DNA of 64,000 nt. It comes from a virus. The DNA lies in IMG/VR virus record IMGVR_UViG_3300046464_000188, positions 1 to 64,000 of that record; one strand, given 5' to 3'. The first letter of the stretch is position 1. Each line of letters starts with the position of its first letter. The translations under genes and the position numbers were made by a program. Under the pieces are notes generated by a model that saw only the letters and a list, made by a program, of their open reading frames with translations, was not told where the DNA came from and did no database searches. Positions 21,022 to 54,253 of the stretch are shown piece by piece.

Positions 21022-22746
21022 ATGAGTGTAGGTGATTTTAAAGACGGTTTAGAAGATTTTAATGATTATATCAACGGAACCAAAGTTGACATACCAACTG
21101 GTCAAGTTGATGTAGATGTTAATGATGGCACAATCACCGCACAAACTCAAGCATACAGTTTAAAAGAAATTATTTGTAGTTTACTAGCAGGTAACGGAAT
21201 TAAGTTACCTAATTTACAAATATGTTTAAAAGTAAATCTTGGTAGACTAATACCAGAAATTCCAGAAGCACTAGCAGATCTAAGAGGAGCATTAGAAGAT
21301 GCTGAAAAAGCTCTTGATGATTTTATAGCACACACAAATATTGATAATGCATTAGGTAGATTAAATTCTGCCGTTGCTGAATTTGCGGCCATTGCAAATA
21401 TGATTAACTTCTGTGGTACACCAGTTGTTCCACGTGCTATTCCAAATGTTCTTAGAGATGCAATGGGTAGTTTTGTAGGAGCAGGTAAAGATATACTTGA
21501 CACACTAGGAACTATGGCAGACGGTGACATAGGTGGCTGTATAGGAACTGATGGGAAATTTAATCCAAATTTATTTACGAGTGGTATCTTAAAACGTCTA
21601 GGTGATCAAGTTGGCAATCTTGCTAACTTACCAGCTAACATTCAACAAGGATTAATTGATGATTTAAATGCTTTTAAAACTGATATGGAAAACTTAATTG
21701 AATTTGAAAATAATTTTAAAGGTTCAAGTTCAACAGGTGGAAGTATATTTGCTCCTACAAATAGAGTAAACACAAATGTTGGTGTAGCAGTAGATAACGA
21801 AAATATGACACTAGCAAAAAGTCAACAATATGCTAGTAATTTACAATCATTGTATAACAGTTTAAAAGCATACGAAGTAGATGAAGCAGGAAATAATATA
21901 TTTGCATATCTACTTGAACCAGAACTATTAGCAAAATTAGAAAACGACGGTGCTCCTACAGTAGCACTAGCAGAAAGACAACCAATATATGATCATTGTG
22001 GTAGAGTAACAGGCTATACACAAAGAAGTATTCAAGCAGTACAAGAAACAAGTGTAGGTGATCCAGAACAAACTAATACACAACCAGGATTGGCAGGATT
22101 AGCTGAAAGTGGTACAGTAGTTACATCATCACCTGCTACAACAACAAATTTAGGTGGCGGCGGTAGCACAAGCTCAGGCTCGTCAGCAAGTTCAGCAAGT
22201 GGTGCAATAACAAATACACAATTACAAACAACACTATCTAATTATGTAACAAGCACACAATTACAAACAGAATTAGCAAACTATCAACCTTCGATAGATT
22301 TGACTCCGTATGCTTTACAAACACAATTATTTTCAGGCAGTTATATAGATTTAACAAATAAACCAAACTTATTTGATGGAAACTATAATAGCCTAACTAA
22401 CTTACCAACTATTCCAACAGACCTAAGCCAGCTAACAGATAATAATAATTTACTGTCAAGTGGTGGCGGTGGAAGTTATCCAACAAACCCAACATTTACA
22501 AGTGTAACAACAAATAATTTTACAGTCACAGGTACAGGCAACATAGTACTCGCAAGTGGTAATAACTTATCACTAACTGCAACACAAAGAGTAGAAGTAA
22601 CAGGAAAGGTGCCAATGAAACTTGCAACAATGACAACAGTAGAAAGAAATCAAATATCATCACCTGAAAGTGGCGATATGATTTATAATACTGATATTAA
22701 CAAGTTTCAAGGTTACGCCAATAATGCGTGGGTAGATTTAAATTGA
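21022..22746 (+). CDS. Tail fibre-like virion protein
   Basis: 574 aa. An N-terminal globular region (about 1-230) is followed by a helical part, then a Gly/Ser linker (residues 382-397). Short repeats of TQLQTxLxNY, a probable trimeric fibre shaft, come next. The C-terminus has GDMIYNTDINKFQGY…WVDLN, a common ending of marine phage fibre and structural proteins. The subtilisin-like protease gene overlaps its end. Exact particle location unknown. Confidence 0.75.
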   Translation: MSVGDFKDGLEDFNDYINGTKVDIPTGQVDVDVNDGTITAQTQAYSLKEIICSLLAGNGIKLPNLQICLKVNLGRLIPEIPEALADLRGALEDAEKALDDFIAHTNIDNALGRLNSAVAEFAAIANMINFCGTPVVPRAIPNVLRDAMGSFVGAGKDILDTLGTMADGDIGGCIGTDGKFNPNLFTSGILKRLGDQVGNLANLPANIQQGLIDDLNAFKTDMENLIEFENNFKGSSSTGGSIFAPTNRVNTNVGVAVDNENMTLAKSQQYASNLQSLYNSLKAYEVDEAGNNIFAYLLEPELLAKLENDGAPTVALAERQPIYDHCGRVTGYTQRSIQAVQETSVGDPEQTNTQPGLAGLAESGTVVTSSPATTTNLGGGGSTSSGSSASSASGAITNTQLQTTLSNYVTSTQLQTELANYQPSIDLTPYALQTQLFSGSYIDLTNKPNLFDGNYNSLTNLPTIPTDLSQLTDNNNLLSSGGGGSYPTNPTFTSVTTNNFTVTGTGNIVLASGNNLSLTATQRVEVTGKVPMKLATMTTVERNQISSPESGDMIYNTDINKFQGYANNAWVDLN

Positions 22747-24242
22747 TAGAACGTGAATATATTGTTACATTAAAATCAGACGTTGATTATGCACAGTTTA
22801 ATCAAGAAATGATTGCGTCTACTGGCGCAGGTGATATTCCTAATAGAACTGTAGATGTAGCAAATGCTAGACCAGGTAGTAAAAGAAATACACACTATGC
22901 CTTGAACGCATTAGAAGTAATTAAATTAAGAAAAGATTCAAGAGTAGATGCAGTAGAACTACCACCAGAGCAAGACGACAATTTAATTATTGAACCCCTT
23001 GCTATCCAAACAGGAAATTTTTCAAAAACAACATCAGATAGTGGCAATTATATGAATTGGGGTATGCGTAGATGCATAGAACAAAATAATCCTTATACAT
23101 TCTCATCTCCAAGTGATGATCAATTTGCTTATACATTAGACGGTACAGGAGTTGATGTTGTAATACAAGACACAGGTATACAAATAGGTCACCCAGAGTT
23201 TAATGATGCAGATGGTAATAGTAGAATAAAACAAATTGATTGGTATGCTGAAAGTGGTATAAGTGGTTCAATGCCTTCTGGACATTATTCAGATTGGAAT
23301 GGACATGGATCACATTGTGCAGGAACAGTAGCAGGTCTAAATTATGGCTGGGCTAAAAATGCACATATCTATAGTGTTAGAGTAAATTTGTCAGGTGATA
23401 CACAAGGCTTTCCAGTTTCAGGAGCATTTGATATCATTAAACTATGGCATAGAAATAAACCAATTACAAGTACAGGATACAGAAGACCAACAATAGTTAA
23501 TATGAGTTGGGGAACAGGTACAGGGTTTGTTAATATTACAGGTGGTAATTACAGAGGAACAAATTGGACAGGAACTAGTAAAAGAGCAGACTATGGAATG
23601 ATAGGTGGTGGATTTTTTAGTAGACATCCAATAAGAGTAATTAGTACAGATGCAGATGTGCAGGAATTAGCCGATGAAGGTATACACGTTTGTATAGCGG
23701 CAGGAAATTCAAGACAAAAAATAGATGAAACAGGTGGTATAGATTATAATAACTATTATACTAATACTAACGGAACAAAAAATTATTATCACAGAGGTGG
23801 ATCACCATTTGGTAATAACGCAATGATGATTGGTAATTTAGATAGTAACTTGCACAGTGGTGGACTAGAACAAAAAGCAAGTTCAAGCGAAACAGGACCA
23901 GGAATTACAGTATATGCACCAGGAACAAATATAATGAGTGCATGGACAAATGAGAGCGGAGGAAGTACATATCATGCTAATAGTAATTATAAACAAAATA
24001 ATATTACTGGTACAAGTATGGCAAGTCCACAGGTTTGTGGACTAGGTGCGTGTATACTACAGTTAGAACCTTACCATACCGCCGCATCATTGAAACAAAA
24101 AATTAGAAACTTGGCAAGCCAAGATAATATATATTCATCAGGACTAGATGACGATTATTCCAACAGTAGATCCATACTAAATTCGGCGAATAAACTGCTA
24201 TATACGCCTTTTAACAGTGGTTATCCTATAAAGACCAGTTAA
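22743..24242 (+). CDS. Subtilisin-like serine protease with I9-type propeptide
   Basis: 499 aa from TTG 22743, which overlaps the preceding stop; GTG 22728 is an alternative. Residues 1-75 (REYIVTLKSDVDYAQF…VDAVELP) look like an inhibitor-I9 propeptide. The catalytic triad is Asp in VVIQDTGIQIGHPEF, His in GHGSHCAGTVAG and Ser in TGTSMASPQVCG. No signal peptide is seen, so it likely acts inside the cell or in the virion. Lying with fibre genes, it might process virion proteins or attack host surface proteins at entry. Confidence 0.87.
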   Translation: MIEREYIVTLKSDVDYAQFNQEMIASTGAGDIPNRTVDVANARPGSKRNTHYALNALEVIKLRKDSRVDAVELPPEQDDNLIIEPLAIQTGNFSKTTSDSGNYMNWGMRRCIEQNNPYTFSSPSDDQFAYTLDGTGVDVVIQDTGIQIGHPEFNDADGNSRIKQIDWYAESGISGSMPSGHYSDWNGHGSHCAGTVAGLNYGWAKNAHIYSVRVNLSGDTQGFPVSGAFDIIKLWHRNKPITSTGYRRPTIVNMSWGTGTGFVNITGGNYRGTNWTGTSKRADYGMIGGGFFSRHPIRVISTDADVQELADEGIHVCIAAGNSRQKIDETGGIDYNNYYTNTNGTKNYYHRGGSPFGNNAMMIGNLDSNLHSGGLEQKASSSETGPGITVYAPGTNIMSAWTNESGGSTYHANSNYKQNNITGTSMASPQVCGLGACILQLEPYHTAASLKQKIRNLASQDNIYSSGLDDDYSNSRSILNSANKLLYTPFNSGYPIKTS

Positions 24243-37044: not shown

Positions 37045-37380
37045 ATGCAAAAAGAAATAGACACTTTAATCCAAGCAATTAAAACAGACTACATTAATTG
37101 GACTACTTCAAATGGGACAAAAGAAATGAGTAGTTATAGTCAAGGTGTAGTTGATTCAATGGAAGATAACATTCAAGTTAAAGAAGGTAAGAAATACATC
37201 AAGATTATTAGAGAAAATAGTGTTTGGGGTTTTATATCTAAAGTAGACTTCAAACATTTTAGAAAAGGTGATATTCTTAAAGCGGCAGGTTGGAATGCTC
37301 CTGCACTTAATGCTCCAAGAGGTAATATTTTAGATGGTGGATATACTGTTAGATGGACAGGCCCACTTTACTTAAACTAG
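37045..37380 (+). CDS. Hypothetical early protein
   Basis: 111 aa. Central KKYIKIIRENSVWGFISKVD and FRKGDILKAAGWNAPALNAPRGN indicate a small beta domain of the kind seen in several marine T4-like early proteins. First gene behind promoter copy B. Unknown function. Confidence 0.72.
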   Translation: MQKEIDTLIQAIKTDYINWTTSNGTKEMSSYSQGVVDSMEDNIQVKEGKKYIKIIRENSVWGFISKVDFKHFRKGDILKAAGWNAPALNAPRGNILDGGYTVRWTGPLYLN

Positions 37381-37385
37381 AGGAT

Positions 37386-37901
37386 ATGCAATTGATTGAT
37401 AGAGCACTTAAATTTTCTACTGCGGCACACGCCGCAGTAAACCAGAAACGGAAGTACACAGGTGATGATTATATTGTTCACCCTATTGCCGTTTCTGAAA
37501 TTGTTGCGGCATTTGGCGGTACAAAAGAAATGATTGCCGCGGCCCTTTTACATGATACAGTTGAAGATACTAATGTAACCAGAGAGCAAATTGCTGAAGA
37601 ATTTGGTTGGAAAGTTTTTAAGTTAGTTGTAGAATTAACTGATGTAACTAAACCAGAAGATGGCAACAGAGCAATACGTAAGGCTATTGAAGCTAAACGT
37701 TTGGGTATGGCTAGTAAAGAAGCACAAATGATTAAACTAGCAGATCTTATTGACAACACAAAATCAATAGTTGAGCATGATCCAAAATTTGCTGAAGTTT
37801 ATATAAAAGAAAAAATAAATCTATTAGAAGCTATGGATAAAGTACATGGCACAGATCTATATATGAAAGCTAACCTTCAACTTATGGAAATTCATGATTG
37901 A
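37386..37901 (+). CDS. SpoT/MESH1-like HD-domain hydrolase
   Basis: 171 aa from ATG 37386. It has the layout of single-domain (p)ppGpp hydrolases: H-x-x-V-x-Q-x-R/K-Y-x-G-D-x-Y-I-V-H-P at the N-terminus, AALLHDTVEDT (metal-binding HD plus the E-D pair, about residues 57-67) and MIKLADLIDN near 120 supplying the last Asp. There is no synthetase or regulatory domain. It could lower host alarmone levels and keep ribosome and nucleotide synthesis active. ppGpp specificity is inferred from the family. Confidence 0.82.
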   Translation: MQLIDRALKFSTAAHAAVNQKRKYTGDDYIVHPIAVSEIVAAFGGTKEMIAAALLHDTVEDTNVTREQIAEEFGWKVFKLVVELTDVTKPEDGNRAIRKAIEAKRLGMASKEAQMIKLADLIDNTKSIVEHDPKFAEVYIKEKINLLEAMDKVHGTDLYMKANLQLMEIHD

Positions 37902-39052: not shown

Positions 39053-39640
39053 ATGCTTATACCAACAGTAATAGAAACAACAGGTCGCGGTGAACGTGCA
39101 TACGACATTTACAGTCGTTTGCTTAAAGATCGAATTGTAATGCTTAATGGCGAAGTTAACGATCATTCAGCTCAATTAGTAGTAGCACAAATGCTATTTT
39201 GTGAGTCACAAAACAACGCAGAAGATATTAATTTTTATATCAATAGTCCTGGAGGTGCAGTAACATCAGGTCTTGCAATTTATGATACGATGCAATTTAT
39301 TAAATCTCCAGTAAGTACAATCGTAATAGGGCAGGCTTGTAGTATGGGTAGTTTCCTTGCAATGGCAGGTGAGCCAGGTAAACGTAATATATTACCTAAT
39401 GCTAGAACTATGATACACCAACCAAGTGGTGGTGCAGGTGGGCAGGCTACTGACATGGAAATACAAGTAAAAGAGATTATTAAAATAAAAGAAAATTTAA
39501 CAAAAATCTATGAAAAGCATAATACTGCTAATAAGTCGTATGATGAACTATCAAAAGCTATGGAGAGAGACAATTATCTAAGTGCAGACGAGGCAGTTGC
39601 CTTTGGTTTAGCAGATAAAGTAGTTTCTCGCAAAACATAG
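39053..39640 (+). CDS. clpP: ClpP protease
   Basis: 195 aa, full ClpP length without a long propeptide. Catalytic Ser in [11 protein letters not shown] (about residue 97), His in [10 protein letters not shown] (about 122) and Asp in [11 protein letters not shown] (about 171). NSPGG forms the oxyanion region. With the ClpX encoded 3 kb downstream it would form a phage ClpXP, or a hybrid with host subunits. AGGAGA ribosome site. Only the proteolytic core is encoded here; regulators follow at 42307 and 44351. Confidence 0.95.
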
Positions 39641-39663
39641 TAGTTTTTAAATCTTAAATATTG

Positions 39664-39671
39664 AATAAATA
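39664..39671 (+). promoter_or_regulatory. T4-like late promoter box
   Basis: AATAAATA 46 nt upstream of the nuclease gene at 39718; seven of eight bases match TATAAATA. Confidence 0.5.
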
Positions 39672-39717
39672 CATGGCATAGACTATATCTATGTTATTAA
39701 AAGAAATGTGAAATTAT

Positions 39718-40077
39718 ATGTATACCTATAATGCTAGATTAATTAGAGTAATAGATGGAGATACTGTAGATTTAGAAATAGATCTAGGGTTTGATTTATC
39801 TGTTAGACAACGACTAAAGTTGTATGGAGTTGGTACTCCAGATAGCAGATCCGCTGACTCTAATACTAAACAAAAAGGTTTAGAAGCAAAACAACGTTTA
39901 ACAGAATTGTTACCAAGACAGTTTAAAATTATTACTATCCTTAATAAGCGAGGAAAGTATGGTAGAGTGTTAGGAACTATATTCATAACAGAAAAAGACA
40001 CAGGTAAAGAAGTAAACGTTAACGAACTGATGGTCACAGAAGGCCATGCAGTAAAGTATACTATTCAAGGGAAATAA
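39718..40077 (+). CDS. SNase-like protein with altered active site
   Basis: 119 aa staphylococcal-nuclease fold: RLIRVIDGDTVDLEID, RLKLYGVGTPDS and KYGRVLGTI. In nuclease the middle motif reads R-x-x-x-(x)-D-T-P-E. Here the Ca-binding Asp is Gly and the catalytic Glu is Asp or shifted (GTPDS). It has no signal peptide, unlike the paralog at 27046. Either weakly active or a DNA-binding derivative. Confidence 0.82.
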   Translation: MYTYNARLIRVIDGDTVDLEIDLGFDLSVRQRLKLYGVGTPDSRSADSNTKQKGLEAKQRLTELLPRQFKIITILNKRGKYGRVLGTIFITEKDTGKEVNVNELMVTEGHAVKYTIQGK

Positions 40078-40080
40078 TAT

Positions 40081-41871
40081 ATGAGGTATTTTGGTTATTG
40101 GACAATATTAGTGGCTCTGGCAATTAGTGCAGTAGCGGCCTACTACAGTATCGTTGGCTTGGTTGCTATATTCTCCGCGGCTATGATACCTATTATTATC
40201 ATGGGTTCCGTACTAGAAATTGGTAAACTAACGTCGGCAGTATGGTTACATTTACATTGGCGACAGGCACCCATTCTTATTAGAACGTATCTCTCCGTGG
40301 CAGTACTGTTGCTCATGTTTATCACGAGTATGGGTATATTTGGCTTTTTAAGTAAAGCTCATATCCAGCAAACAAGTCTAGCCACAGAGAACGTAGCTCA
40401 AATAGAGATTATAGAAGACAGTATTGTTAGAATTAAACAAGATGTAGTTAGATTTGAGACAAAGATTTCAAACTTTGAAAATAAAGATGATAAAATTGAT
40501 ACTACAATACAAGATAAAATTAATCAAGAGCAAGAAAGAATTAATACTGCATATGATGGTGTTAATCCTTCTATTGAAGAATTAAATGAACGTATAGAAA
40601 AGCAATTAGCTGATAGAGAAAAAACTATAGAGCCATACACTCGTGAATTAGATAAAATTCAAAAAGACTTAGAACTAATAGATATGTATGTAGCAACAGA
40701 AAATATTAAGAAGCTACAAGGCATGATTGGTGCTAGACAAGATGGTAGATATGGTAGTAGAACTGCTAAAGCAGTTAAAGAGTTTAGACAAGCTAAAGAT
40801 GAACGTAAAGACGAAATTTTAAAAATTATAAACAACATAAAAACACAAGAAGATCCAGTAATTGTTGATGCTAGAAATGAGATCAAGAGACTAAGAGCAC
40901 TAGCTGAACAACAAATTGCTGACTCAAATGAGTTAATTACTAGACTCAGAGCACAATTAGGCCAGGGACAGGTTGAAGATAGTACAGAAGAAATAATTGC
41001 ATTAAGAGATAATATCAAAGCATCTAATGTAGAGCTTGGCGATCTATATAGCAAGAAAATTGCGTTAGAAGGCGAAAGCAGACAATTAGAAGCAGAAGTT
41101 GGCCCGGTTAAATACATTGCAGAATTAATTTACGGTGACGAAGCAACAAGAAATATGTTAGAAGATGCCGTTAGATTTGTTATGTTAATTCTTGTTTGTG
41201 TTTTCGATCCGTTGGCCATTGTACTTGTTATCTCAGGTATTATATTGGTAGAAAGGTATCCCAGGCCGGGCAAGAAAACAAAAATCTTAAATGAAAAAAC
41301 AGTACAAGAAGAACAAACTGAATCTAGCGAAGACAGCAACATCAGAGAAGATGATACAGATATTGAGATCGAGCCAGAGACTACCAAAGAGTCTGATGTA
41401 CAAGATAAAGTTTTGGAACAAACACTCGAAATAGCAGAAAAAATTCAAGAAGAAGATAAAGAAATTCTTGAGGCACTTGCTAAAGATACTGAATCAGAAG
41501 GATATCTTGAATCTAAAGATACTCCACCAGAAATTTTTAAAGACGAGAAGGGTGAAGAATATACAGTAGACATTAAAACCGGCGAACGTAAGTATGTAGT
41601 CAACAAGGTTCAATGGGAACTAAATAGTAAAGAGAGATCAGCGGCAAAGAAAGAAAAAAAAGAATTAGTAAATAAAATTGTTGCTGAAATGAAAAGCACC
41701 GGAAGTTGGCCAGGTACAAGTTATATGGAAGGCGAAGGTGTTGTTAAAAAGAAAATTGAACAAATATTTGCTGATGATGCATCTTTAGAACTAAAAGAAC
41801 TTATATCAAGAGCAGATGAAAAAGTATTACAAGAAGTGTATAACACAATATTAAAAGATATTAAGAAATGA
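40081..41871 (+). CDS. Large coiled-coil membrane protein with a peptidoglycan-binding-like insert
   Basis: 596 aa. Three or so transmembrane helices at the N-terminus (about 5-100), then a long coiled coil to about residue 350. Next come a further transmembrane pair (about 362-392) and an acidic cytosolic tail. Within the coiled coil, KLQGMIGARQDGRYGSRTAKAV (split here as KLQGMIGA and DGRYGSRTAKAV, about 210-232) looks like a PG-binding-1 helix motif. Layout recalls DUF4407-like proteins. A role in envelope remodelling or exclusion is possible but unproven. Confidence 0.7.
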   Translation: MRYFGYWTILVALAISAVAAYYSIVGLVAIFSAAMIPIIIMGSVLEIGKLTSAVWLHLHWRQAPILIRTYLSVAVLLLMFITSMGIFGFLSKAHIQQTSLATENVAQIEIIEDSIVRIKQDVVRFETKISNFENKDDKIDTTIQDKINQEQERINTAYDGVNPSIEELNERIEKQLADREKTIEPYTRELDKIQKDLELIDMYVATENIKKLQGMIGARQDGRYGSRTAKAVKEFRQAKDERKDEILKIINNIKTQEDPVIVDARNEIKRLRALAEQQIADSNELITRLRAQLGQGQVEDSTEEIIALRDNIKASNVELGDLYSKKIALEGESRQLEAEVGPVKYIAELIYGDEATRNMLEDAVRFVMLILVCVFDPLAIVLVISGIILVERYPRPGKKTKILNEKTVQEEQTESSEDSNIREDDTDIEIEPETTKESDVQDKVLEQTLEIAEKIQEEDKEILEALAKDTESEGYLESKDTPPEIFKDEKGEEYTVDIKTGERKYVVNKVQWELNSKERSAAKKEKKELVNKIVAEMKSTGSWPGTSYMEGEGVVKKKIEQIFADDASLELKELISRADEKVLQEVYNTILKDIKK

Positions 41872-42320
41872 AATTAGACAATAGTTCTTACACAGTCACA
41901 CCTCCTGATTTAATGTTGACTGAACACGGTGTAAGTGTACTAATAACCAGTACCAATCAAAAGTTAATAACAAAAGTAAAAGATATATTTGAAAAATATA
42001 TTGCAACAAGCATTGTATTCTATATACAAAATAAACTAACTAACTCAAATACCCTACCATGGCTATGGAACGTATCAAAAACTTGTGAATTTATGATTAT
42101 TGATCTTGATACCTGTGCAGAAGCAGATATAATTGCAGGATTAATGAAACCAAGAGACGATGAAAAAGTTGTACTGTTTTACAGTGATAAGTACACTAGA
42201 AGAGATACGATAAAACTAATAAACGCAACAGGCGAAAATTTAGTAGTCACTAAGATGGAAGATGTACATAACTATATAAGGTTACAAATGAACCCAGAGT
42301 ATTTTGATGAGACCAAATGA
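41868..42320 (+). CDS. Hypothetical protein upstream of clpX
   Basis: 150 aa, alpha/beta with alternating strands (VSVLITS, SIVFYI, FMIIDLD, VVLFYSD, NLVVTKM) as in a small Rossmann-like or receiver-like fold, but without the phosphoacceptor set. Coupled to both neighbours (ATGA overlap at its start, clpX start inside its end). Could be an adaptor for ClpX; inference from position only. Confidence 0.65.
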   Translation: MKLDNSSYTVTPPDLMLTEHGVSVLITSTNQKLITKVKDIFEKYIATSIVFYIQNKLTNSNTLPWLWNVSKTCEFMIIDLDTCAEADIIAGLMKPRDDEKVVLFYSDKYTRRDTIKLINATGENLVVTKMEDVHNYIRLQMNPEYFDETK

Positions 42321-43518
42321 TATAATCTGCAATTTTTGCGGAAAAGGTAGAAACCAAGTAAAAAAATTATTAGCAGGTGAAAATGCTATGCACATTTGTT
42401 CTGATTGTGTAGAGTTATGTCACGGCATATTACAGAACAATGAAATTAAAATAGAAAATACAATAGAAAAGAAATTTAATCTTCCTACACCTAGAGAAAT
42501 ACACAAGCATTTAGATGATTATGTTATAAGTCAAGATAAAGCAAAGAAAACTTTAAGTGTAGCAGTTTATAATCATTATAGAAGAATTACATCAGATACA
42601 AAAACAAAATTACAAAAAGGAAATGTGTTTATTGCAGGTCCTACAGGAACTGGTAAAACATTAATGGCACAAACACTAGCCAATCATTTAGATGTTCCAT
42701 TTGTTGTAACAGATGCTACAGTTATTACCGAAAGCGGTTATGCAGGAGAAGATGCAGAAGTATTAATACATAAATTATTTCAAGCGGCAGATTACAACGT
42801 AGAAAGAGCAGAACGTGGTATAATTTATGTTGACGAAATAGATAAAAAAGCAAAACGTAATGACTTTGTAAGTTTAAGTAGAGATGTAAGTGGTGAAGGA
42901 GTTCAGCAAAGTTTATTAAAGCTAATAGAAGGTAGTAAAGTAACAGTACCTAATAAGCCTCAAAGTAATCCAGAAAAAGTAATTGTTGATACAACCAATA
43001 TATTGTTTATTGTTGGTGGTGCATTTGTTGGTTTAGAAGAAGTAGTTGCTAATAGACTTGGTAAATCAAAAATAGGCTTTAATGGTGAAGAAGGTCATAA
43101 GATAGAAAATTGGACAGAGTACTTACAAACCAAAGACTTGGTAAAGTATGGATTAATACCAGAATTTATTGGTAGGTTTGCAAGTACCAACGTATTATCC
43201 CATCTAAGCAAAGAAGACTTGGTAAAGATATTAACAGAACCAAAAGATGCTATTGTAGAGCAAATTAAAGAATTATTTTTACTTGACAAAATACAAATAG
43301 AGTTTAAAATGGAAGCATTGGAAGAGGTAGCAGACATAGCAATAAAAGAAGAAATAGGGGCCAGAGGGTTGCGTAAGATACTTGATGGTGCATTACTTGA
43401 ATTACAATATAGGTTACCAGAAATGTCCAGTGAAGGTATAAACAAAATTATTATTACAAAAGATGTTATTTCTAAAAACGCAGAACCCCATTACATTAAG
43501 AGCACCAATGCAAAATAG
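42307..43518 (+). CDS. clpX: ClpX unfoldase
   Basis: 403 aa from ATG 42307. N-terminal zinc-binding domain with Cys 8/11/31/34 (CX2C-X19-CX2C as in ClpX). AAA+ core: Walker A GPTGTGKT (about 115-122), Walker B YVDEIDK, sensor and IGARGLR C-domain. The IGF loop for docking to ClpP is kept (SKIGFNG). Pore loop 1 reads GYAG instead of GYVG, and the RKH loop region reads VPNKPQSNP, so substrate and ssrA-tag gating may differ from the host enzyme. It ends 11 nt inside infC. Confidence 0.95.
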   Translation: MRPNDIICNFCGKGRNQVKKLLAGENAMHICSDCVELCHGILQNNEIKIENTIEKKFNLPTPREIHKHLDDYVISQDKAKKTLSVAVYNHYRRITSDTKTKLQKGNVFIAGPTGTGKTLMAQTLANHLDVPFVVTDATVITESGYAGEDAEVLIHKLFQAADYNVERAERGIIYVDEIDKKAKRNDFVSLSRDVSGEGVQQSLLKLIEGSKVTVPNKPQSNPEKVIVDTTNILFIVGGAFVGLEEVVANRLGKSKIGFNGEEGHKIENWTEYLQTKDLVKYGLIPEFIGRFASTNVLSHLSKEDLVKILTEPKDAIVEQIKELFLLDKIQIEFKMEALEEVADIAIKEEIGARGLRKILDGALLELQYRLPEMSSEGINKIIITKDVISKNAEPHYIKSTNAK

Positions 43519-44029
43519 GAATTTTAGAAGAAGAGATACAAAACCTTTGTATACTGCAAATGAACGTATTAAATTTGCAGAAATACGAGTTTCCTTTCCA
43601 GATGGCGATAGTCAGGTCATGTCTACAAAGGAAGCCTTAGCAAAAGCAAAAGAAATGGAGTTAGATTTAGTACTAATAGCTGAAAAAGCTCAGCCACCAG
43701 TATGCAGAATTATCGCACTCAATAAACATTTGTATGAGCTAAAGCAAAAACAAAAGCTGGCTAAAAAGAAACAACGCGAAAGCATTGTAGAAATTAAGGA
43801 AATACGAATGGGTGTAAACATTGATATCCATGATTTGGAAACAAAAGCTAATATGGCTCGTAAATTCTTAGATAAAAATAACAAACTAACAGTTATGGTG
43901 ACAATGAAAGGCAGAGAACGTGGCAGACCTGAGTCCGCTAAAGAAGTGCTAAATAAGTTTGCAGAAAAACTTAATATCAAATTTGAACATATTAGTGTTC
44001 AAAGTCACAGAGTAACTGGAAAAACATAG
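43508..44029 (+). CDS. infC: Translation initiation factor IF-3
   Basis: 173 aa from ATG 43508, which overlaps the clpX end; this is the length of a complete bacterial IF-3. N-domain: NERIKFAEIRVSFPDG and AEKAQPPVCRI. Linker is Lys-rich (KQKQKLAKKKQRES). C-domain: EIKEIRMGVNIDIHDLE, KFLDKNNKLTVMV and KGRERGRP, the ribosome-binding face. IF-3 binds the 30S subunit, prevents 50S joining and proofreads start codons. A viral copy could retune initiation toward phage mRNAs, notably leaderless or unusual-start ones in this genome. Confidence 0.94.
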   Translation: MQNRNFRRRDTKPLYTANERIKFAEIRVSFPDGDSQVMSTKEALAKAKEMELDLVLIAEKAQPPVCRIIALNKHLYELKQKQKLAKKKQRESIVEIKEIRMGVNIDIHDLETKANMARKFLDKNNKLTVMVTMKGRERGRPESAKEVLNKFAEKLNIKFEHISVQSHRVTGKT

Positions 44030-44036
44030 AAAACAT

Positions 44037-44318
44037 ATGGCATATAATAAAAACTATACAAAAAATTGGCAGTCAAATGATAGACGGCCTACTAGACGTG
44101 ACGATCAACCCAAAGTAAAAGGTTTAACTGTTGAAGTTAGAAACGGAAACCTTGAACAAGCTATGAGAAGACTTAAAAAGATGATAGCAAAAGAAGGTAT
44201 AATGCAAGAAGTTCGTGACCGTAGACACTTTGTAAGTAACACGGAAAAAAGAATCAAAGCAGAAGCGGCTGGTAAAGCTAGACATCGTAGACGAATTGCT
44301 ATGGACAAACCAAAATAG
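44037..44318 (+). CDS. rpsU: Ribosomal protein bS21
   Basis: 93 aa. The core KGLTVEVRNGNLEQAMRRLKK and EVRDRRHFVS…RRIAMDK matches bS21; the N-terminus has about 25 extra polar residues (NKNYTKNWQSNDRRP…). bS21 sits beside the anti-Shine-Dalgarno end of 16S rRNA and can exchange onto host ribosomes. It is among the ribosomal proteins known to be encoded by phages, pelagiphages included. Adjacent to infC (7 nt), so both initiation-related genes are probably co-expressed. Confidence 0.92.
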   Translation: MAYNKNYTKNWQSNDRRPTRRDDQPKVKGLTVEVRNGNLEQAMRRLKKMIAKEGIMQEVRDRRHFVSNTEKRIKAEAAGKARHRRRIAMDKPK

Positions 44319-44321
44319 ATC

Positions 44322-44329
44322 TATAAATA
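44322..44329 (+). promoter_or_regulatory. T4 late promoter box for clpS
   Basis: Perfect TATAAATA 21 nt before the clpS ATG. Confidence 0.7.
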
Positions 44330-44350
44330 TCTTTATAGGAAGGCATAATT

Positions 44351-44653
44351 ATGACAAGAACTCAGACAAGTGATGTAGCAGAGATTACAAAGTTAAAATC
44401 TCCACCTAAGTATTGTGTAATACTACTCAATGACGATTCTACACCTATGGAATTTGTTATTAATATATGCCAAACTATTTTTAATAAAACAAAAACAAAA
44501 GCAGAAGCTATTACGTTAGAAGTACATAAAAAAGGTAAAGGTGTAGCAGGCACCTATAGCTACGAAGTAGCAGAACAAAAATGCGTAGAAACTGTAACAG
44601 AAGCCAGAAGAAATGGTTTTCCTTTAGATGTTACATTAGAAAAAACAGAGTAA
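44351..44653 (+). CDS. clpS: ClpS adaptor
   Basis: 100 aa. Typical ClpS segments: CVILLNDDSTPMEFVINIC (N-degron pocket Asp/Asn residues, about residues 22-40) and EVHKKGKGVAGTYSYEVAEQK (His of the binding pocket and the core helix). ClpS delivers N-end-rule substrates and redirects ClpA in bacteria; in Alphaproteobacteria it works with ClpAP. No ClpA is encoded here, so it would act on the host ClpA or on phage ClpX/P in a new way. Own late promoter and AGGAAGG site. Confidence 0.93.
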   Translation: MTRTQTSDVAEITKLKSPPKYCVILLNDDSTPMEFVINICQTIFNKTKTKAEAITLEVHKKGKGVAGTYSYEVAEQKCVETVTEARRNGFPLDVTLEKTE

Positions 44654-45521: not shown

Positions 45522-45950
45522 ATGAAAATAGGATTTACTTGTTCAACATTTGATTTACTACACGCCGGGCATATTGCTATGTTGCGAGAAGCTAAGGCAC
45601 AATGTGATTATTTAATAGTAGGACTACAAACAGATCCTACAATAAGTAGACCAACAAAGAATTCACCTATACAAACAGTAGTAGAAAGATATACACAATT
45701 AAAAGCAGTAGGGTATGTAGATGAAATAATTCCATATACTACTGAACAAGATTTAGAAGATATACTTTCTATGTATAATATTAATGTACGAGTATTAGGT
45801 GAAGAATATAAAGAAAAAGATTTTACAGGAAAAGATATCTGTAAACAGAGAGATATTTCTCTATACTTTAATAAACGAGACCATAGATTCAGTTCAACAG
45901 AATTGAGGCAACGGGTTAACACAAAGGAAATGAAAAATGAGAGTGCGTGA
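45522..45950 (+). CDS. Cytidylyltransferase (TagD/RfaE-C type)
   Basis: 142 aa nucleotidyltransferase fold with LLHAGHIAML (HxGH, residues 13-16), KNSPIQTVVERYTQL and RFSSTELRQR (ISSTxxR motif). Glycerol-3-phosphate or related cytidylyltransferases have this form. It activates a small phosphorylated compound with CTP, likely for envelope or virion glycan use together with the GATase-like protein. The exact substrate cannot be read from sequence. Confidence 0.85.
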   Translation: MKIGFTCSTFDLLHAGHIAMLREAKAQCDYLIVGLQTDPTISRPTKNSPIQTVVERYTQLKAVGYVDEIIPYTTEQDLEDILSMYNINVRVLGEEYKEKDFTGKDICKQRDISLYFNKRDHRFSSTELRQRVNTKEMKNESA

Positions 45951-47058
45951 AGAAGTTAAACTAAATTTTGAAGATGTATTAATGGAACCAAAACGTTCTA
46001 CACTATCAAGTAGACGTGATGTACAAATGACTAGAAAGTTTACATTCCGAAACTCTGGTAAAGTGATTGACTTCTGCCCTATATTTGCTAGTAATATGGA
46101 TGGTGTAGGTACGTTTGAAGTTGCTAAAGTATTACAAGAACACAAAATGATGACTGTAATTACAAAAAGTACAACACTAGATGAATGGAAAGCGGCCGCA
46201 GGTACAGGTTTACGTTTACAGAGTGTAAGTGTATGTACAGGAACAAATCGTATGTACGATCCAGACGCAGAAGATTATTCCAATATGCAGGCAGTATTAA
46301 AATCATTTCCTGATGTAAAAATGATTACTGTTGATGTTGCCAATGCTTATCACGAGAATTTTGTAGACTTTATTAAAATGGTAAGAGAAGAATATCCAGA
46401 TAAAGTTATTGTAGCAGGCAACGTAGTAACTCCAGAAATGGTAGAAGAACTAATTATAAATGGTGCTGACGTAGTTAAAATTGGTATTGGGCCTGGATCA
46501 GTATGTACTACAAGAACAATGACAGGTATTGGAGTACCACAGTTTTCAGCTATATTAGAATGTGCAGATGCGGCAAATGGCGTTGATGGACATATTATGG
46601 CAGATGGTGGTTGTGTACATCCAGGAGATATTGCTAAAGCACTTGGCGGTGGAGCTCATATGGTAATGATTGGTGGAATGTTAGCTGGTCATAAAGAAGG
46701 TGGTGGTAATATTATTACTAAACATACTGCTACTGGTGGAGCTCATAAGCTAGATAATGGAACATATGTTCCACACTTTGAAGAACAACAGTTTGTTGAG
46801 TTTTATGGTATGAGCTCAGATCGTGCTAGAGAGAAACATGGCAAACGAAAAGATGGCTATAGAGGGAATGAAGGTAGACATATTGTTATGCCTTATAGAG
46901 GACCTATTAACGATACAGTAGAAAACATACTAGGTGGAGTTAGATCTGCGGCTACTTACATTGGAGCAAGGCGTTTAAAAGATATGCCAAAATGTGCAAC
47001 ATTTGTAAGAACGCATAATGTCATCAACAGAACTTACGAACAATTCACTGTAAAATAA
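45937..47058 (+). CDS. guaC: GMP reductase
   Basis: 373 aa of the IMPDH/GMPR family without CBS domains. Active loop GIGPGSVCTTRTMTGIG contains the catalytic Cys. ADGGCVHPGDIAKALGGGA binds phosphate, and FYGMSS near 290 is typical of GuaC. It converts GMP to IMP with NADPH and ammonia release, shifting purines toward adenine nucleotides, fitting an AT-rich phage genome. Overlaps the cytidylyltransferase end by 14 nt. Confidence 0.92.
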   Translation: MRVREEVKLNFEDVLMEPKRSTLSSRRDVQMTRKFTFRNSGKVIDFCPIFASNMDGVGTFEVAKVLQEHKMMTVITKSTTLDEWKAAAGTGLRLQSVSVCTGTNRMYDPDAEDYSNMQAVLKSFPDVKMITVDVANAYHENFVDFIKMVREEYPDKVIVAGNVVTPEMVEELIINGADVVKIGIGPGSVCTTRTMTGIGVPQFSAILECADAANGVDGHIMADGGCVHPGDIAKALGGGAHMVMIGGMLAGHKEGGGNIITKHTATGGAHKLDNGTYVPHFEEQQFVEFYGMSSDRAREKHGKRKDGYRGNEGRHIVMPYRGPINDTVENILGGVRSAATYIGARRLKDMPKCATFVRTHNVINRTYEQFTVK

Positions 47059-51602: not shown

Positions 51603-52103
51603 TTGAAAAAAATAAAAGATACATACGATAATTTTTTTAAATGGGTTAAAGGTACTGAGTTAGTAGAACTAACTGACATAGATGTTTCCGAAGATCCTGT
51701 AAGACCTGAATTAACACTTGAATGGAGATTAGATGCCTCAAGAAAAATTTATGGTTTAAAATACGAGGATGATGTAGAAGCAATAGTTTGTGTAGCATAC
51801 ACTAATGAAGTACCTATTACAGTTAGAGAAATGGACTATATGAGTCAGGTAGCCTGCCAGGATGGCCAACTTGGTTCTATTGCAATAGCCTATACAGTAT
51901 GGTCAAGAAAAAGAGGAGCAGGTAAAGAAATCATTAATAAGCTATATGAGTTTTTACGTAGTGAAAGATTAGCAACAAAAAGGTTGGTAACATTATCTCC
52001 ACTTACACCAATGGCAACACATTTCCATATTAAGAATGGTGCCAAACAAATCAGCATAAACGATACAACACAAAACTTTGAGTATAAATTGGTTGACAAT
52101 TAA
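51603..52103 (+). CDS. GNAT-like acetyltransferase
   Basis: 166 aa, TTG start at 51603 with AGAG upstream; 10 nt after the peroxiredoxin gene. AYTVWSRKRGAGKEIINKLYEF resembles motif A of GNAT enzymes (R/Q-x-x-G-x-G/A), and FHIKNGAKQISIND the motif B end. Target unknown; could acetylate host proteins or small molecules. Confidence 0.68.
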   Translation: MKKIKDTYDNFFKWVKGTELVELTDIDVSEDPVRPELTLEWRLDASRKIYGLKYEDDVEAIVCVAYTNEVPITVREMDYMSQVACQDGQLGSIAIAYTVWSRKRGAGKEIINKLYEFLRSERLATKRLVTLSPLTPMATHFHIKNGAKQISINDTTQNFEYKLVDN

Positions 52104-52122
52104 ACTTTTACGTGTATAAATA
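52093..52122 (+). promoter_or_regulatory. Overlapping early and late promoter of the tmRNA locus
   Basis: TTGACA (52093-52098), 16-nt spacer, TATAAA (52115-52120), which is also the start of a perfect late box TATAAATA (52115-52122). The tmRNA could be made in both phases of infection. Confidence 0.75.
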
Positions 52123-52128
52123 TACATT

Positions 52129-52190
52129 GTGGACGTTGAAGCGACTTGAAGATATTATGGACCTCGGGGCAGTACCGAGCACCTCCACCA
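52129..52190 (+). ncRNA. ssrA: tmRNA acceptor piece (3' half, gene-permuted)
   Basis: Ends in T-arm CTCGG-(GGCAGTA)-CCGAG (52163-52179), acceptor strand CACCTCC (52180-52186), discriminator A and CCA (52188-52190). The acceptor strand pairs with GGGGGTG at 52275-52281. Because the 3' half precedes the coding half in the DNA, the RNA must be processed into two pieces, as in Alphaproteobacteria. The 5' boundary is estimated from the promoter. Confidence 0.85.
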
Positions 52191-52274
52191 TAAAAGCATT
52201 GGAAAGAAAATGATAGTATTTGATTTACTTGGCTATGTGATACTGGCAAATTTTATTGCTAGTGCTTTTATGAT
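52191..52274 (+). other. tmRNA intervening segment
   Basis: Spacer removed to yield the two-piece tmRNA. TAAAAGCA (52191-52198) pairs with TGCTTTTA (52263-52270), extending the acceptor helix in the precursor. It also contains most of a 25-codon ORF starting at 52210. Confidence 0.7.
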
Positions 52275-52287
52275 GGGGGTGAACTAG
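52210..52287 (+). CDS. 25-aa hydrophobic ORF across the tmRNA junction
   Basis: ATG 52210 after GGAAAG, ending TAG 52285-52287 within the tmRNA coding piece. The peptide is mostly hydrophobic (VFDLLGYVILANFIASAFMMG). It may be chance in AT-rich DNA, or a membrane peptide read from precursor RNA. Confidence 0.3.
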   Translation: MIVFDLLGYVILANFIASAFMMGVN

Positions 52288-52450
52288 GATCGACAGGTAT
52301 TGTATGGAAGTGGAGTTTACCGGGTGATTACGTTATTGATCAAACTTTATAAACGCAGAAGATAATTTTGCTATAGCGGCCTAATTTAGGCACGTAGGGG
52401 TGGGAACTACCTGGCAACAGAAGTGCCACTGAATTCTTTAGAACTCAGTA
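52275..52450 (+). ncRNA. ssrA: tmRNA coding piece (tag AEDNFAIAA)
   Basis: Begins GGGGGTGAACTAGGATCGAC, the conserved tmRNA 5' end with acceptor and D-arm. The tag frame starts at GCA 52355 and reads A-E-D-N-F-A-I-A-A before TAA at 52382-52384, ending in the -AA degron recognised by ClpX. Pairing elements follow the tag (GGCAC 52389 with GTGCC 52423; GTAG with CTAC) and a hairpin at 52429-52448. The 3' end is approximate. Confidence 0.88.
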
Positions 52451-52456
52451 CTACAA

Positions 52457-52477
52457 AAAGATAAATTTCTTATCTTT
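52457..52477 (+). terminator. AT-rich hairpin between tmRNA and the next gene
   Basis: AAAGATAA (52457-52464) pairs with TTATCTTT (52470-52477), five-base loop. It may end the tmRNA transcript or act in processing; the stem is weak and lacks a full T-tract. Confidence 0.4.
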
Positions 52478-53173: not shown

Positions 53174-54253
53174 ATGCCGCCTAGAAATCATAAAAATTGG
53201 TTAGCACAACCAAATGTTGAATATGTAAGTAGTGAAATATATTCAGATCAAAAAATATTCGAAGAAGAAATAAAACATATCTTTAGTAAAGTATGGGTAC
53301 CAGTATGTCATTCAAGTGAGATGGACATGACAGGTTGCTATAGAACAACACAGATTGCATTTCAAAATGTAATTGTTATTAGATTTAGTAGTGGAATTGT
53401 TAGAGCATTTCATAATGAGAAAGTAACTAAAGTATCTGGTATGGATTTGTCACTTTGTTACCATGCATTATCTTGGAAAGAATTACCATGTGAAACAAAA
53501 CATGGAGGAATGATATGGGTAACACTAGATACAGAAACAACAACGACAGTAGATGAATGGACTGCTGGTGCATTTGATTGTATCTCTGATGCAATTGATA
53601 CAGAAGAACTAGAAGTATTCCATTATCATAAAGCAATTATCCCGACAAATTATAAATTATGGCATGATACAAACAGTGAATTCTATCATGACTTCATGCA
53701 TTATTTTAATAGAGTAACCGGTTTCAACGATGAGTATTTTGCTAGAAAGAATATTCCCTTTGCAAACGGTCATGTAAACGTAAGTAGTTTTACAGTTAAT
53801 TATACAGAATTTGATAAAGAAGGTGATAGAGGAGAATTAAGTTTTCCTAACTTACCACCAAATCAATGGTATATGGTAGATCTGTTTCCTGGATTCAATT
53901 TTAATTTGCGTGGTAGTGCATATCGTTCAGATAGTGTAACTCCACTAGGACCAAATAGTGTTCTTATTGAATTTAGAGGATATGGATTAAAGAAAGATAC
54001 TCCAGAAGAGCGACAAACCCGTATTAAGCATCATAATACAATATGGGGTCCGTTTGGTAGAAACTTACATGAAGATTTAATAGGTGTAACAGGACAAGGA
54101 ACGTCAATGGCACCAGGTACTGAGAAAAGAAATATACTGCATGGTAGACATGAAAATGGTACTATACACGACGAAGTTGGTATGCGACATTACTATGCAG
54201 AATGGGGGAAACACGTAAATTTGGATCCTTCTAACCCTATTATTAGTACTTGA
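53174..54253 (+). CDS. Rieske-type ring-hydroxylating oxygenase homolog with degraded Fe-S site
   Basis: 359 aa. The N-terminal domain aligns with the Rieske region of oxygenase alpha subunits (HIFSKVWVPVCHSSEM…RAFHNEKV), but the first C-x-H ligand pair is missing; only LCYHALSWKE remains for the second pair. The catalytic domain keeps EFYHDFMHYFN (mononuclear iron His residues) and HEDLIGVTGQGTSM. Loss of the cluster ligands suggests no normal electron input. Could be a re-purposed iron enzyme or inactive; substrate unknown. Confidence 0.75.
   Translation: MPPRNHKNWLAQPNVEYVSSEIYSDQKIFEEEIKHIFSKVWVPVCHSSEMDMTGCYRTTQIAFQNVIVIRFSSGIVRAFHNEKVTKVSGMDLSLCYHALSWKELPCETKHGGMIWVTLDTETTTTVDEWTAGAFDCISDAIDTEELEVFHYHKAIIPTNYKLWHDTNSEFYHDFMHYFNRVTGFNDEYFARKNIPFANGHVNVSSFTVNYTEFDKEGDRGELSFPNLPPNQWYMVDLFPGFNFNLRGSAYRSDSVTPLGPNSVLIEFRGYGLKKDTPEERQTRIKHHNTIWGPFGRNLHEDLIGVTGQGTSMAPGTEKRNILHGRHENGTIHDEVGMRHYYAEWGKHVNLDPSNPIIST

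Follow-up and report, generated by a model that had tools for sequence, protein, structure and literature searches.

Phages usually borrow the proteases of their hosts. Seven Clp proteins along with DnaJ were reported from Agrobacterium phage Atu_ph07 (PMC6102473), and the report on Sinorhizobium jumbo phage AP-J-162 lists six Clp open reading frames (ORFs), a clpX gene next to IF-3, bS21, L7/L12 and one transfer-messenger RNA (tmRNA) (PMC11242549). Translation genes have also been reported from huge phages, which carry IF-3, bS21, tmRNA and, in some genomes, SmpB (PMC7162821). Here we describe a viral sequence that encodes ClpP, ClpX, ClpS, IF-3, bS21 and a tmRNA within a window of 64,000 nucleotides. 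This window corresponds to bases 1-64000 of the 80,390-base IMG/VR record IMGVR_UViG_3300046464_000188.

A conserved proteolysis and translation island

Curated family models matched clpP, clpX, infC, rpsU, clpS and the tmRNA gene, confirming that all six are present as a first-pass annotation of the window had claimed. Apart from the tmRNA gene, these genes lie in the following island.

39053-39640, plus strand: clpP, Clp protease catalytic subunit, 195 amino acids (Pfam, 1.9e-76; NF001368, 291.6 bits)
39718-40077, plus strand: SNase-like endonuclease, a constant member of the island (Pfam PF00565; PHROG 452, endonuclease; syntenic in relatives)
40081-41871, plus strand: membrane/coiled-coil protein, 596 amino acids (a sub-threshold tetraspanin match alone)
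41868-42320, plus strand: orf150, receiver-like (beta/alpha)5 protein, 150 amino acids (overlaps clpX by 14 nucleotides, counted from the ATG)
42307-43518, plus strand: clpX, 403 amino acids (ATG start at 42307 most likely, TTG at 42304 also possible; NF003745, E = 1e-150, above the equivalog cut-off)
43508-44029, plus strand: infC, translation initiation factor IF-3 (ORF opens at 43463; TIGR00168, 131.6 bits, above cut-off; matches to solved IF-3 structures)
44037-44318, plus strand: rpsU, bS21 with a basic N-terminal extension (TIGR00030, 52.2 bits, above cut-off)
44322-44329, plus strand: TATAAATA, an octamer resembling a T4 late promoter, within the 32-nucleotide gap upstream of clpS
44351-44653, plus strand: clpS, encoding the N-degron adaptor that serves ClpA (Pfam, 9.9e-30, well over the gathering score but short of the NCBIfam equivalog cut-offs)

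When viral contigs were scanned with ClpX, 59 viral loci emerged in which the gene order clpP–SNase–membrane protein–orf150–clpX–infC–rpsU–(hsp20)–clpS is constant. Based on profile searches of these loci, with denominators restricted to loci long enough to tell, ClpS was present in 57/57, the 596-amino-acid type of membrane protein in 56/56, IF-3 in 54/57, bS21 in 55/57, ClpP in 42/45, orf150 in 49/53, and Hsp20, encoded between rpsU and clpS, in 47/56. Several loci are near-copies, such that the counts are not independent; nonetheless, the set comprises 39 distinct ClpX sequences and spans 46–100% ClpX identity. Matches to an Acinetobacter "phage MD-2021a" were discarded, as their tig-clpP-clpX context looks like a bacterial chromosome. 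The clpX-infC-rpsU-clpS set, together with clpP, is a real and conserved feature, and the search of related phages that the first-pass annotation had proposed as a check bore this out, with a fixed order in the 59 loci and tmRNA genes in 17 of 26 records.

The named genes are under purifying selection: ratios of nonsynonymous to synonymous substitution rates (dN/dS) against loci L003 and L008 were 0.05-0.31 wherever computable (ClpP, 0.05-0.10; ClpX, 0.09-0.13; IF-3, about 0.2; bS21, 0.14-0.18). For ClpS, the value of 0.06 applies to the comparison with L003 only, as silent sites were saturated against L008. Such low ratios indicate that these genes are kept for function.

Both the N and C Pfam domains of IF-3 scored above cut-off; however, the C domain aligns to positions 1-63 of the 86 in its profile and ends ~10 residues early, as it does in all relatives, making an earlier description of "full domains" slightly too strong. 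The gene most likely starts at the internal ATG at 43508; its counterparts in L009 and L019, for example, begin close to this position. The 11-nucleotide overlap of clpX and infC noted previously holds for this start, although the ORF itself opens at 43463.

ClpX has lost residues that read the ssrA degron

The phage ClpX retains the C4 zinc finger, Walker A and B motifs, the box VII arginine and the sensor-2 GAR motif, and the IGF loop that docks ClpP is retained in every phage ClpX that reaches this region. The catalytic residues reported in the first-pass annotation are thus in place, but those that read the degron have been lost. In E. coli ClpX, recognition of the ssrA tag needs Y153, V154, T199, V202, R228 and H230, all listed as critical by Fei et al. 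(PMC7652416). Relative to E. coli ClpX (a reference sequence that agrees with the PDB alignment to 8e91), the main phage clade has GYAG in place of GYVG in the pore-1 loop, S in place of T199, and VPNK-PxxNPEKV in place of the GGRKHPQ loop. Among phage ClpX sequences, A154 occurs in 34 and S199 in 35, and H230 is missing in 35. The phage protein has A154 and S199 and lacks R228 and H230; of the six ssrA-reading side chains, three are lost and a fourth is changed. In bacterial ClpX, V154, T199, R228 and H230 are invariant in 80/80 sequences, these being the best 80 among the matches listed and drawn from many phyla.

The altered phage sequences form one clade (support 100/100). A separate clade (L053-L060) keeps RKH and GYVG, and in L053, L054, L056 and L059 the bacterial residues V154, T199, R228 and H230 are all retained. 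ClpP was present in all 14 marine records searched from the clade lacking RKH, not counting the window's own record, whereas clpP was not detectable in G025 and G026, the two records of the RKH-keeping clade. AlphaFold predicted a tight hairpin at the position of the RKH loop; the IGF region was poorly modeled.

Human ClpX, which differs at T199 and H230, degrades no ssrA substrates (PMC7652416); because of this parallel, the lost residues bear on ssrA specificity rather than on the identity of the protein as ClpX. From these sequences, we infer that the altered ClpX still feeds ClpP and reads the ssrA tail poorly. Because the degron-reading residues are lost, phage ClpXP is probably not an ssrA-tag protease, and phage ClpX probably destroys different proteins from those destroyed by host ClpX. 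An otherwise intact ClpX that has naturally lost the RKH/GYVG degron site provides a ready-made experiment on the evolution of ClpX specificity.

ClpA, ClpS and chaperones

Beyond the window, the same record encodes a second unfoldase, preceded by a chaperone gene.

L078:4543-5220: DnaJ-like gene, directly before clpA
L078:5213-7474 (record bases 67213-69474, beyond the window): ClpA, 753 amino acids (best family ClpA, below the NCBIfam equivalog cut-off)

Since ClpA lies just past the window in the same record, the Clp set is fuller than first claimed; the addition is important, as ClpS serves ClpA and not ClpX as an adaptor. The predicted ClpA has a Clp_N domain, both AAA domains, KYRG/GYVG pore loops and the IGF loop that contacts ClpP, and with ClpS it supplies the components of ClpAPS. 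It was found in nine marine records, namely the window's own and eight others at 69-95% identity, and more distant ClpA proteins occur in Atu_ph07 and Phosso. The pocket motif NDDxTPM is present in ClpS, in agreement with the earlier claim of intact residues, and the solved Caulobacter ClpS structures 3dnj and 3g19 match at 8e-22. The suggestion that clpS has its own late promoter remains unproven, as TATAAATA is no commoner in the window than expected by chance (12 found, 16.2 expected).

The position of DnaJ directly before clpA, and of Hsp20 between rpsU and clpS, would also fit an explanation in which the Clp proteins and these chaperones mainly aid virion assembly or the late clearing of aggregates and the translation genes are merely neighbors. 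Such roles have been proposed for Atu_ph07 (PMC6102473) and for jumbo-phage ClpA/ClpX (PMC7824862). We consider this explanation unlikely, albeit a serious contender: in the marine loci clpX is strictly linked with both infC and rpsU, and it adjoins infC even in Atu_ph07 and Phosso, and a dedicated prohead protease is present.

orf150, a candidate ClpX adaptor

AlphaFold modeled the orf150 product with a predicted local distance difference test (pLDDT) score of 80.7 and a predicted template modeling (pTM) score of 0.76, and the order of strands and helices is that of a receiver domain. The best PDB matches were mostly response-regulator receivers (probability 1.00; E about 3e-3; template modeling score about 0.5-0.6), none of which reached E = 0.001. 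Likewise, PF00072 was touched weakly by 5 of 25 orf150 family members (best E = 0.005).

Receiver-type ClpXP adaptors include CpdR and E. coli RssB. In Caulobacter, CpdR serves as an adaptor of ClpXP (PMC8119881). The modeled orf150 product has a receiver-like alpha/beta order, and its gene overlaps clpX; it has no significant sequence match. We hypothesize that orf150 encodes a ClpX adaptor. No orf150 was found in the RKH-keeping clade where contigs reach far enough upstream (L055, L058-L060). A strict link between orf150 and the altered ClpX was rejected, as Phosso carries an ORF in the corresponding position; because profile comparison finds no relationship between that ORF and orf150, the evidence for the link now consists of the absence from L055 and L058-L060.

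A stronger version of this idea would make phage ClpXP orthogonal to that of the host: the pore site would have been rebuilt once in an ancestor while ClpP docking was kept, the orf150 adaptor would supply substrates chosen by the phage, and ClpA/ClpS with the tmRNA would perform general clean-up. We regard this full version as unlikely.

tmRNA and trans-translation

52074-52475, plus strand: ssrA, permuted tmRNA of alphaproteobacterial type, tag AEDNFAIAA (RF01849, 111.2 bits; RF04321, 98.3 bits; ARAGORN)

The RF01849 match and the tag read by ARAGORN at these positions confirm the tmRNA placed near 52.1 kilobases (kb) by the first-pass annotation. The tmRNAs of the 17 records are likewise of alpha type, and ARAGORN identified permuted genes in which every tag read ends in Ala-Ala. 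We searched 18 phage records for SmpB and detected none, whereas the same search detected SmpB in 10 of 14 control genomes; because of this result, the phage tmRNA appears to need SmpB from the host. A host assignment based on the tag was dropped, as AEDNFAIAA, ANDNYSPEMALAA and their relatives match no sampled alphaproteobacterial tag exactly, though all are of alpha type. Just downstream of the tmRNA, at window positions 53174-54253, lies a gene for a ring-hydroxylating oxygenase-like alpha subunit.

The first-pass annotation described a near-complete kit for ribosome rescue and tag-dependent proteolysis. Its components do co-occur, and ClpA, DnaJ and Hsp20 extend it; however, SmpB was not found and ClpX has lost its degron readers, and a kit sufficient in itself for both tasks is not supported in that form. 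These same facts bear on the proposal that phage ClpXP itself degrades tagged proteins within a coherent trans-translation quality control run by the phage. The co-occurrence of clpX, clpP and ssrA and the Ala-Ala ends of the phage tags fit this proposal, but phage ClpX lacks the RKH loop and carries V154A and T199S, R228 and H230 are critical in E. coli (PMC7652416), SmpB was not found in the phage records, and the clade that keeps RKH and GYVG (L053-L060) is the one in which clpP was not found. We therefore judge this proposal improbable. On sequence evidence, the earlier interpretation was right in kind but probably misassigned the handling of the tag to ClpX; ssrA tags would probably be handled by ClpA/ClpS or by host enzymes instead of phage ClpXP.

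ClpP and head maturation

The Ser-His-Asp triad, as claimed earlier, and the ClpP fold family were both identified in the phage ClpP, and its best solved relatives are bacterial and mitochondrial ClpP. A separate S77 (T4 gp21-type) prohead protease is encoded in sister records G001, G002 and G014, as well as in Atu_ph07 and Phosso, but the G000 fragment itself yielded none; because of this separate protease, ClpP need not serve head maturation. That ClpP is merely the head maturation protease of ClpP type that is common among phages is very improbable: PHROG 94 and others carry that label, and G011 and G016 have a second, shorter ClpP-like ORF with no S77 protease detected, but the protein scores as canonical ClpP, its gene clusters with clpX, and G001, G002 and G014 have the S77 enzyme in addition.

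The shorter ClpP-like ORFs, possibly head proteases, lie at G011:93196-93642, G014:172803-173312 and G016:31442-31909. In ClpP variants at L019:6160-6768 and in L036, L037, L038 and L047, ~10 extra residues replace a 13-residue segment after the catalytic His.

Proposed model

The explanation that we favor overall, with moderate confidence, is a conserved proteolysis-and-translation island with two unfoldases, a retargeted ClpX, and a tmRNA that works with host SmpB, in a lineage of large, T4-type (gp21-protease) marine phages that probably infect Alphaproteobacteria. If the island is expressed and its products assemble as predicted, phage ClpP would serve two substrate classes through two unfoldases. 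ClpA with its adaptor ClpS would take N-degron proteins and possibly ssrA-tagged ones, whereas the retargeted ClpX, not built for the ssrA tail, would act on other proteins, which the receiver-like orf150 product may hand over. IF-3 and bS21 could exchange into host 30S subunits and favor phage initiation; the bS21 of another pelagiphage enters E. coli ribosomes (PMC6375957). The phage tmRNA, with host SmpB, may free ribosomes once host mRNA has been destroyed, and its Ala-Ala tag may route the resulting fragments to ClpAP or host ClpXP. Together, these steps could amount to a coherent phage takeover of translation quality control. The linked order of a peptidase, two unfoldases, an adaptor, chaperones, a rescue RNA and initiation factors in a widespread marine lineage shows that phage control over the turnover of proteins and over initiation has long been selected for.

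Several points weigh against this model. In addition to the negative result for SmpB, no tmRNA, ClpA or Hsp20 was detected in G014 (192 kb), indicating that the set is not obligatory, and the marine records are all fragments or of uncertain completeness. In the sole published test, phage bS21 impaired E. coli ribosomes (PMC6375957). The receiver-like fold of orf150 was assigned from sub-significant matches, and residues elsewhere in ClpX could make up for the lost loops.

Other genes in the window and its relatives

A Zeta-toxin/AAA kinase-like gene lies between clpP and the SNase gene in L008 (L008:4726-5415); it was noted in L008 and L038 and is missing in the window phage, and similar gaps occur in most relatives. 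Three further genes of the window are listed below.

22728-24242: subtilase-family serine protease
37353-37901: isolated RelA/SpoT-type HD hydrolase domain, which may be a small (p)ppGpp hydrolase able to relieve the stringent response
45937-47058: guanosine monophosphate (GMP) reductase (NF003470, above cut-off), following glutamine-amidotransferase and nucleotidyltransferase-like genes in a conserved block

Comparison with known systems

Jumbo phages of the Atu_ph07 type are already known to carry the parts: Clp sets, IF-3, bS21 and tmRNA. New within the open literature searched are the compact marine island and the degron-site change in ClpX, as we found no report of either (subscription papers and preprints lay outside the search).

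Atu_ph07 (MF403008) shares ClpX, ClpA, ClpP, ClpS, DnaJ beside ClpA, Hsp20 near ClpS, IF-3 directly downstream of clpX, and the S77 prohead protease. It differs in that the genes are scattered over a 490 kb genome with no tmRNA reported, its ClpX has GYVG and an RKN loop, and its clpX-infC pair lies beside topoisomerase genes. Sinorhizobium phage Phosso (PV764938) shares clpX-infC, bS21, ClpS, ClpA, ClpP and Hsp20, whereas its ClpX has GYVG and RKN. AP-J-162 shares Clp ORFs, clpX beside IF-3, bS21 and tmRNA, and the accessible part of its description mentions no change at the ClpX tag site (PMC11242549). In neither AP-J-162 nor Phosso does the set form one compact island.

The bS21 proteins of huge phages and pelagiphages have a similar basic N-terminal extension (PMC7162821, PMC6375957); in the main text of the huge-phage study, however, Clp genes go unmentioned (PMC7162821). 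The bacterial ClpXP and ClpAPS systems and trans-translation share component identity and core motifs with the phage set, whereas here SmpB is missing, the genes are phage-borne, and the degron site of ClpX is altered.

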